Origin: Prochlorococcus sp. AG-363-N16
Lineage (GTDB): Bacteria; Cyanobacteriota; Cyanobacteriia; PCC-6307; Cyanobiaceae
Length of the DNA: 64,000 bases
NCBI GenBank assembly: GCA_003280135.1
Contig: QCFW01000003.1
Coordinates: 62,001 to 126,000 of the forward strand
Direction: 5' to 3'
Below, piece after piece: positions 53,897 through 56,488 of this stretch. Every line of letters begins with the position of its first letter. Position 1 is the first letter of the stretch. The translations under genes were made by a program, and so were the position numbers. Under the pieces are notes generated by a model. It did no database searches and was not told the DNA's origin. It saw only the letters and a list, made by a program, of their open reading frames with translations.

Positions 53897-54724
53897 ATGA
53901 AGATTTGGGATGCAAGCTTTCCTCTTATTTCTTTAAAAGGAGAAGGCACTAGAAAATTTCTTCAAGGTCAAATATCTTCAGAAATTCTTTCTTTAAAAGA
54001 ACAAGAAATAATTCGTACCTGTTGGTTGTCTCCTCTAGGTAAGATCAGAGCATTATTTGAACTTCGTATAATTAATGATGGAGCAGAAATATTAATTATT
54101 TCTGGAAATGTAAAAGAAGTTTTTTATGGTTTAGACAGCGTCATTTTCCCTGTTGATAATGTAAGCATTAATCTTGCAGGGAAAATTAGAAGAGTTCAAA
54201 TGATGTCTTATTCAGAATCTTGGCGGAAGAGTTCGTTTAGATGGGTATTTCATCAAAACAAAGAACTTAAATATTTTGGAAATTATGAGATTGCTACTAA
54301 GTCTGAACTTGATAAATGGAGTATTCAACAAGGAATTATTTCTGACTTTTCTTTATTGAATTTAGAGACAAATCCGTTTGAATTAGGATTATCTGATTTG
54401 TTGAATCTAAACAAAGGATGTTTTTTAGGCCAAGAAATAATAGCTAAGTTAAATAGGATTGGTCACGTAAAACATGAATTAAGAGCATTTATTAGTTTGA
54501 GTGATCAAATGAAAGCTGGAGATACATTAATATCTCTAAATGATACAGATGAATTGAAAAATCAAACTGCGGGCTTTATTTCATATTCTTTTAAAACAGC
54601 AGAAAAACAGACTATAGGATTTGCTTTTATCAAAAGAAAGTATCTATTAGAAAGGGAACTAATTAATAAGAGTTCTATGATTCCATTGGAAATAAATAAA
54701 CCTATTGGATTTGTACCTATTTAG
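53897..54724 (+). CDS. ygfZ: YgfZ/GcvT-like folate-binding protein
   Basis: NKGCFLGQEIIAKLNRIGHVKHELRAF corresponds to the KGCYxGQE motif. Confidence 0.85.
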   Translation: MKIWDASFPLISLKGEGTRKFLQGQISSEILSLKEQEIIRTCWLSPLGKIRALFELRIINDGAEILIISGNVKEVFYGLDSVIFPVDNVSINLAGKIRRVQMMSYSESWRKSSFRWVFHQNKELKYFGNYEIATKSELDKWSIQQGIISDFSLLNLETNPFELGLSDLLNLNKGCFLGQEIIAKLNRIGHVKHELRAFISLSDQMKAGDTLISLNDTDELKNQTAGFISYSFKTAEKQTIGFAFIKRKYLLERELINKSSMIPLEINKPIGFVPI

Positions 54725-54736
54725 AATAAATTATTG

Positions 54737-56188
54737 TTAATTATTTAAAAGCCATTTGGTTATTTCTAATGTTGCCAGACAGTCATCTTTGTTATAGTTG
54801 AGTATTTTATTTAGACTTAATTCTTTTGCTTTGCTTGCTATTGATATGCTTTGATATTGTCTCCACCAAGACAATGCTTTCGCACCATCAACATTATCTT
54901 GACGCCAAGAAAAATCAAGCCATTTTGCTACCGTTTTTAGACTATAATTATTTAATGGCAGTATCCAATTATCTTTTATTCGCTTATGTATATCAATAAA
55001 TCTTATCTTTAAACCGTTTATATACTCTTCTTTCTCTCTTTGCTCTCTTGCCATTTTTGATATTGAAGATAATTCGGTTTCTCCATAGTGAATAATAGGC
55101 CAATCTTTGTATAAATCTAACTGATCTTTTATCCTTATCCAGGTATCAGCTTCGGATGACTTTTGAAAGGATATTATGTCTATATATTTAATATTATTTA
55201 TGTTTAGATTACCATCTTTTGATTTTGGTATACAAATAAATCCGTGAAGAAAGTCATGCTGAATATCAGGGTCTGACTCTATGTCGTAGATTAAAATTCC
55301 CTTCGCTTTTTCGATCTCAGGTAATACTTTATTATTTGTAATTCTTGATGGTTTATGGTTAATTTGGGCTTTAGCTTGGTTAATAAGTAAACTACTAATA
55401 ATTCCATGATCTTTTTTAAAAGATTCTAGTTTAAGATTTAAATCATCTGAATTATATGAGGCAAGCTGTTTAATATTTAAAATCCCTATTGAGTTGAGTA
55501 ATTCTTTCCGCTTACCTCCAATCCCGCTGACTTCACTAATCTCACCTTTTTCCAAAGCTTCCTTGTTACAGTATTCTTTCCAAGAACAGACTACGCATTT
55601 TTTCCTGTCAGAAACTATAGGAGGCATTTCAACAGTCTCGAGATCTCTTTTTAGCTTTCCTATTGACTCTTTGAGTTTATTTTTTAGGTTACTTGTTATT
55701 AATAACTTATCTATTTCTAGTTTATTACTGACAAGCGAGATTGCTATTCCTTCTTTTACAGGAGAGCCTTGAAATTGCTCCAGTAGGTATGCCAACATAG
55801 CTATTGAAAGTCTGTTTGCCCTAGTTAACTTTTTCCCTTGTCTGGCTATAACAGGTCTATATTTGAATTTTCCTAATCTGCTTTTACCATTGATTTTTTC
55901 TAGTAATAGTGGATGGGCTTCTAATGGATACCCTTCTTGCGAATTTCCTTTTAAACGGATTCCTATTACATTGCTAACTCCGTTTTGTGTAGCATTGATA
56001 CCTCGACCAACTTCTTTATTGCAATAAGCTAAAAAACTTTTGTATTGATGGTCTAGTTGCAAGCTTCTATGAGCTGACCATCTCCTGAATGCTTGAGATT
56101 CAAATTTATCTAGCCAAGCTTTCCTTTTGCAGCGAATCCAACTAATTAATAAACGATCGGTGATTAATATTTTTTTTGGATTTATCAT
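54737..56188 (-). CDS. TM0106-type RecB-like Fe-S nuclease fused to HhH and DEDD exonuclease domains
   Basis: Cas4-like cysteines (WIRCKRKAWL ... CVVCSWKEYC), HhH-like SGIGGKRKELLNSIGI, exonuclease motifs YDIESD and NYNKDDCLATLEI. Confidence 0.8.
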   Translation of the reverse strand: MINPKKILITDRLLISWIRCKRKAWLDKFESQAFRRWSAHRSLQLDHQYKSFLAYCNKEVGRGINATQNGVSNVIGIRLKGNSQEGYPLEAHPLLLEKINGKSRLGKFKYRPVIARQGKKLTRANRLSIAMLAYLLEQFQGSPVKEGIAISLVSNKLEIDKLLITSNLKNKLKESIGKLKRDLETVEMPPIVSDRKKCVVCSWKEYCNKEALEKGEISEVSGIGGKRKELLNSIGILNIKQLASYNSDDLNLKLESFKKDHGIISSLLINQAKAQINHKPSRITNNKVLPEIEKAKGILIYDIESDPDIQHDFLHGFICIPKSKDGNLNINNIKYIDIISFQKSSEADTWIRIKDQLDLYKDWPIIHYGETELSSISKMAREQREKEEYINGLKIRFIDIHKRIKDNWILPLNNYSLKTVAKWLDFSWRQDNVDGAKALSWWRQYQSISIASKAKELSLNKILNYNKDDCLATLEITKWLLNN

Positions 56189-56269
56189 ACTTTGACTATA
56201 GTCTGTTAATTCTGCCTTTCATTCAATTCAAGCCCTTATGTCTTGACTAATGAATTTTTATGTTATTGA

Positions 56270-56316
56270 AAGTGTTTAATATATATGAAATCATTAGAAC
56301 ACTTGCTTTCATATAT
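56270..56316. repeat. two interleaved inverted repeats
   Basis: AAGTGTT (56270-56276)/AACACTT (56298-56304) interleaved with ATATATGAAA (56281-56290)/TTTCATATAT (56307-56316). Confidence 0.6.
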
Positions 56317-56488
56317 GATATCCTTATCTTATTAATCAAGTTGCTTTCTTTTATTATTTAGTCTTCAGAAGAGAAGAACATATTCTTAAACTTCACTAGA
56401 TTTATAAAGTTTTGATTAGTTAACTTATAATTACTTTTAATAAAAATTTGATTACTCTTCCATTATAAAGATTAACCTAATTTTTATT

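Follow-up and report, generated by a model that had tools for sequence, protein, structure and literature searches.

A picocyanobacterial TM0106-family protein that couples a conserved DEDDy exonuclease domain to a Cas4/RecB-like Fe-S domain with a very probably lost nuclease site

Does a protein that profile searches label a RecB-like nuclease still carry a RecB-type nuclease site? The question arises from one gene in the window, the 64,000-nucleotide stretch of Prochlorococcus sp. AG-363-N16 DNA analyzed here. A first-pass annotation of the sequence had described a Cas4-like Fe-S/HhH/exonuclease fusion, gave no strand, and proposed that its RecB active site may be lost. The gene is a single open frame of 483 codons on the minus strand that starts with ATG and encodes 483 residues; stop codons run throughout the plus strand, and the ends proposed for the frame are exact (Table 1). 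The motifs cited for the protein are all in place: C20, C198-VV-C201-SWKEY-C207, an HhH-like segment at about 215-285, DIESD (D302, E304) and Y465-NKD-D469-C. The stretch KYRPVIARQGKKLTRANRLSIAMLAYLL, quoted as the place where the RecB motifs should lie, occupies residues 109-136. The gene is present in one copy in its own genome (assembly 1.4 Mb, 82% complete).

Table 1. Coordinates of the gene, its domains and motifs, and the convergent neighbor, numbered from the first letter of the window.
Feature	Position	Strand	Basis
YgfZ (CAF17-like Fe-S cluster protein), convergent, 12 bp away; context only	53897..54724	+	TIGR03317 48.5 bits, just below the cut-off of 49
Stand-alone TM0106/COG2251-family protein (P0001), 483 aa	54737..56188	-	Open frame; TIGR03491 end to end; single copy
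Cas4/RecB-like domain, residues 1-208, bearing the Fe-S cysteines; fold retained, nuclease site very probably lost	55565..56188	-	Foldseek, model
Fe-S cysteine 1, C20	56129..56131	-	C in 73/73 picocyanobacteria, 101/103 other Cyanobacteriia (2 gaps), 7/7 melainabacteria
Residues at the former RecB active site: L94 in place of D, I114 and R116 in place of D/E-x-K, S128 in place of Q, L132 in place of Y	55793..55909	-	Residue alignment
Basic motif replacing the active site, residues 116-126 (RQGKKLTRANR)	55811..55843	-	Column conservation
Fe-S cysteines 2-4, C198, C201, C207 (CVVCSWKEYC)	55568..55597	-	73/73, 103/103, 7/7 (groups as for C20)
Helix-hairpin-helix-like region, residues 215-285	55334..55546	-	Weak profile matches; helices in model
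DEDDy exonuclease domain, residues 296-483	54740..55303	-	PF13482; Foldseek matches to PolC exo domain and RNase T
ExoI motif D302-I-E304	55277..55285	-	Invariant, 194/194
ExoII motif H367-YGET-E372	55073..55090	-	E372 invariant, 194/194; Glu for the usual Asp family-wide
D399, conserved acid between ExoII and ExoIII	54992..54994	-	D in 73/73 and 103/103; N in melainabacteria
ExoIII motif Y465-NKD-D469	54782..54796	-	Y465 and D469 invariant, 194/194

TIGR03491 ('TM0106 family RecB-like putative nuclease') spans the protein with 454.3 bits against a curated cut-off of 97.45 (E = 5e-136, profile positions 1-462 of 462). This score over the full model and the presence of the four Fe-S cysteines assign the protein to the TM0106 family. 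PF01930 (Cas_Cas4) matches residues 116-207 (E 1.9e-5) and PF13482 (RNase_H_2) matches residues 300-480 (E 1.6e-20), and the domain order is a Cas4-like Fe-S domain, an HhH region and a PolB/DnaQ-type DEDDy domain. In published work COG2251 groups with exonuclease domains of the PolB type, and 3'-5' exonuclease activity was predicted for it (PMC3985635). The first-pass annotation treated the function of this family as unresolved; the family has a name, and the exonuclease prediction is in print (PMC3985635). Searches of the open-access literature for TM0106 and TIGR03491 returned no relevant paper, and no biochemistry of the family and no essentiality or expression data were found there.

Searching the PDB by sequence gave nothing beyond weak HhH matches, so fold searches were needed. 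AlphaFold2 models were made for the window protein (mean pLDDT 90.0, pTM 0.84) and for a melainabacterial member with an intact RecB site, L082 (mean pLDDT 92.9). The best PDB matches of the window protein model in Foldseek are Cas4 structures 8d3l and 8d3q (best E 3.5e-6, TM normalized to the target 0.66-0.71), followed by Dna2. The C-terminal half matches the PolC exonuclease domain and RNase T, and the L082 model matches Cas4, Dna2, DnaQ and PolB. The RecB-type core with its Fe-S staple that characterizes the Cas4 fold is thus present in the predicted model.

Catalytic residues were scored in an alignment of 194 distinct members: 73 picocyanobacteria (genomes placed in the same family as the window's genome), 103 other Cyanobacteriia, 7 melainabacteria and relatives, and 11 long or outgroup forms. 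The RecB set consisted of five residues, the motif II D, the D/E, the K, the Q and the Y. All five are intact in 7/7 melainabacteria and 9/11 outgroups, both small comparison sets. Other Cyanobacteriia never exceed three of the five, a score reached by 30 of 103. Sixty of the 73 picocyanobacteria have none of the five and 13 have one; the full set is kept by 0/73. The window protein has neither the motif II Asp and (D/E)xK of a catalytically competent PD-(D/E)XK enzyme nor its QxxxY, where S128 and L132 stand instead. Each intact residue of L082 (D108, D128, K130, Q142, Y146) lies 14 positions beyond its window counterpart, and the same offset relates the L082 strands 109-117 and 120-129 and helix 137-154 to strands 95-103 and 106-115 and helix 123-140 of the window protein. 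This constant offset in sequence and predicted secondary structure indicates that the core contains no indel and conceals no intact motif. A merely shifted QxxxY, suggested by a Q two residues earlier in other Cyanobacteriia, was rejected on the basis of a K-to-Q spacing of 10 instead of 12, a position on the wrong face of the helix and a core without an indel.

The proposed RecB degeneracy is therefore borne out by 194 relatives, two structure models and the fold searches, and intact RecB residues, sought elsewhere in the domain as the first-pass annotation had advised, were not found; the equivalent positions are L94, I114, R116, S128 and L132. The claim needs one refinement: the loss is not peculiar to this protein, but is clade-wide, covering 73/73 picocyanobacteria and, in part, all other Cyanobacteriia. 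Judged from the sequence comparison, the Cas4-like domain of the window protein is very probably a pseudo-nuclease that has lost both the PD-(D/E)XK metal site and QxxxY.

The domain is not decaying with its active site. The dN values of the RecB core and the DEDD domain are 0.089 and 0.090 in one genus and 0.057 and 0.092 in another, the two genera with usable synonymous divergence. Approximate Nei-Gojobori dN/dS ratios of 0.29 and 0.09 in these genera (45 and 5 pairs) point to purifying selection on the very probably dead domain, which together with residue conservation rules out a gene in decay. A tree built by a quick method from only the HhH and DEDD part recovers picocyanobacteria, other Cyanobacteriia and melainabacteria as one clade each (SH-aLRT 100, 99 and 100). 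Broken and unbroken metal sites require at least 10 changes on this tree, a count without direction. Outgroups and melainabacteria hold the intact state, so loss is the natural reading: the Q would have gone in all sampled Cyanobacteriia, the metal site several times, and the whole set in the picocyanobacterial clade.

The four cysteines are retained in picocyanobacteria, in melainabacteria and, apart from two gaps at the first, in other Cyanobacteriia, and a bound Fe-S cluster is predicted from them. The space vacated by the active site is occupied by a basic motif. The picocyanobacterial columns are 92% K/R at 116, 100% G at 118, 84% K/R at 119 and 120, 99% K/R at 123 and 89% K/R at 126. Other Cyanobacteriia read GKRPK at 118-122, with K/R in 99-100% at 119, 120 and 122. 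This conserved motif probably reflects reuse of the old site for DNA binding.

The exonuclease domain has the DxE of ExoI, an acid at ExoII and the Yx3D of ExoIII, the ExoII acid being E372. Loss of DEDD acids was the other weakness for which the protein had to be checked; none is missing, with D302, E304, E372 and D469 present in 194/194 members and N466 likewise invariant (194/194). Glu at ExoII is unusual among DEDD enzymes. The HhH profile matches between the two domains are to RadA/Rad51 and NusA HhH domains and are weak (E 0.004-0.03).

The best explanation, to which we assign a probability of roughly 0.7, is a chromosomal housekeeping DEDDy 3'-5' exonuclease whose Cas4/RecB-like Fe-S domain is a pseudo-nuclease that grips DNA. 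The Fe-S domain and HhH would bind a DNA end or a single-strand/double-strand junction, the basic motif would now line the former RecB active site, and the 3' strand would be fed from the Fe-S domain and HhH to the DEDD site. There, two metal ions would support the removal of nucleotides at DNA ends or flaps. What we infer for the protein is that it binds DNA, acts as an exonuclease with 3'-5' polarity, and serves in DNA repair or replication. Such reuse resembles AddB and RecC, in which dead helicase folds have turned to reading Chi (PMC4824097), and the Fe-S cluster of AddAB is essential for binding broken DNA according to a reference as cited in PMC4824097. The Glu at ExoII in all members, the weak HhH match, a substrate that could be RNA and a neighborhood with no linked partner other than the conserved YgfZ gene are points against this explanation.

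The protein might instead have a chiefly structural or regulatory role, such as that of an Fe-S scaffold that senses redox state, in which neither nuclease site matters. The cysteines are kept as well as the DEDD acids, the convergent neighbor YgfZ is itself an Fe-S cluster protein, and the ExoII Asp has become Glu across the family. We regard this as unlikely, because the DIE motif, E372, and the Tyr and second Asp of YNxDD do not vary in 194/194 members, which is the pattern of a catalytic site. That the DEDD domain acts on RNA, making the protein an RNA 3'-end or R-loop processing enzyme, is improbable. DEDD domains act on either nucleic acid, RNase T is among the Foldseek matches and the HhH matches NusA, but its relatives Cas4, Dna2 and AddB all act on DNA, an AAA-type helicase is fused to the related long form in the Synechococcus-like member tested, and published work clusters the family with exonuclease domains of PolB (PMC3985635).

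A protein with two active nuclease sites, in which the Cas4-like domain still cuts through a migrated or unusual site, is quite unlikely. The fold is intact, and picocyanobacteria have Glu at 90 in 82% and at 124 in 90%, with position 116 basic in 92%. Migrated PD-(D/E)XK active sites are known from other families. However, picocyanobacteria have no acidic position from 28 to 200 that reaches 95% conservation, the window protein has Ala at 124, and the Q and Y are lost as well.

Relatives were found in 140/151 genomes of the same family, including 92/94 of the high-quality ones, and in 155/292 genomes across the phylum. Nearly every sampled member of the class has one, with a gap in one small family (f19: G239, G319, G377 and G403, near-complete genomes of 2.5-3.3 Mb), where no match to the protein family was seen. 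A control search reports a TIGR03491 match in Synechococcus elongatus. No relative was found in phage records. Plasmid relatives (Rhizobium, Pseudomonas, Sphingomonas, Leisingera and others) are mostly about 1,100 residues long, and a shorter stand-alone relative occurs on the Pseudarthrobacter plasmid pACHL01. A divergently oriented gene for a WYL-domain protein adjoins the long form on alphaproteobacterial plasmids (L162, L166, L167); WYL-domain genes are frequent neighbors in defense islands.

The first-pass annotation saw no CRISPR or recombination partner nearby, and the ten neighbors examined agree: each has a housekeeping or metabolic role. The upstream neighbor is rdgB (XTP/dITP pyrophosphatase); on the downstream side come the convergent ygfZ and then pyrE; farther out are a corC-like gene, a Gfo-type oxidoreductase, a carotenoid-cleavage-type dioxygenase, hisB and fabI. 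The 300-base gap toward rdgB (56189-56488) holds a phosphoglucomutase/phosphomannomutase gene in two Prochlorococcus-like loci (L168, L171). That gene is missing from the gap here and in a sister genome (L187), and the assembly has only 29%-identical homologs elsewhere. The immediate 3' neighbor in 45/50 picocyanobacterial loci is ygfZ, convergent and within tens of bases; it was found near the gene in none of 83 other loci (about 4 kb of flank, by a blastp search that could miss distant YgfZ copies). Both products concern Fe-S clusters, but convergence in a clade with conserved gene order is weak evidence for a link. No other partner gene linked to the nuclease gene was found.

No CRISPR-like array was seen in the 44-64 kb part of the window and no Cas1 in the 82% complete assembly, so the linkage to cas1/cas2 or arrays that defines a CRISPR-associated Cas4 was not found in this incomplete genome. 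The same assembly yielded no RecJ and only part of RecB, but at 82% completeness it is too incomplete a basis for calling repair enzymes missing. A defense or solo-Cas4 protein acting against phage, or a supplier of CRISPR spacers, is favored by weak PADLOC Cas4 matches (best E 1e-9) and is extremely improbable given a core gene that is nearly universal, keeps its housekeeping synteny and has a clade-true tree, a genome without detected Cas1, no phage relative, and the absence of the catalytic residues that Cas4 proteins keep.

Neither the protein family nor its domain composition nor the exonuclease prediction is new. A RecB/Cas4 site that is dead clade-wide and weakened class-wide, beside an untouched cluster and DEDD domain, appears to be new; we found no prior report in the open-access literature, and one may exist. 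In Earth's most abundant photosynthetic cells the gene is nearly universal, its gene order is conserved and its tree follows the clades, and its annotation as a RecB-like nuclease rests on a domain that is very probably unable to cut there. If the pseudo-nuclease reading is right, the label is misleading, the activity to seek is 3'-5' exonucleolytic and belongs to the DEDD domain, and the protein becomes a clean case for learning what an Fe-S cluster domain contributes to DNA handling once its own cutting is removed. More tentatively, the whole class may have exchanged Cas4-like catalysis for DNA or redox sensing by stepwise loss, with a basic reader motif gating the DEDD exonuclease and a helicase-fused paralog as its mirror image.

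Among known systems, the window protein shares domain order, cysteines, DEDD acids and a full-length match with the TM0106 family (TIGR03491/COG2251; PF01930 + PF13482), within which outgroup (9/11) and melainabacterial members keep all five RecB residues whereas picocyanobacterial members keep 0-1. CRISPR-associated and solo Cas4 proteins match it in fold (8d3l, E 3.5e-6) and in the four-cysteine module; the window protein differs in lacking the catalytic residues and cas genes and in having a fused HhH-DEDD domain. Catalytic motifs are kept across Cas4 proper in a survey that lists one inactivated Cas4-like protein, from virus TTV1 (PMC5704561), so pseudo-nuclease Cas4 folds have a rare precedent. 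The long COG2251 paralog of some marine Synechococcus-like genomes (L074-L076) has the same nuclease-HhH-DEDD front end in the reverse state: its RecB residues are 5/5, its four cysteines are replaced by S, G, G and I, and a C-terminal AAA-type helicase was seen in the Synechococcus-like member tested. AddB and Dna2, the latter a Foldseek match, share the Fe-S-stapled RecB-type fold. They retain nuclease activity and bear helicase or helicase-like domains where the window protein has a DEDD exonuclease. PolB, DnaQ and RNase T exonucleases share its DIE, YxxxD and fold, and the window protein departs from them in its ExoII Glu and in its tether to a Cas4-like domain.
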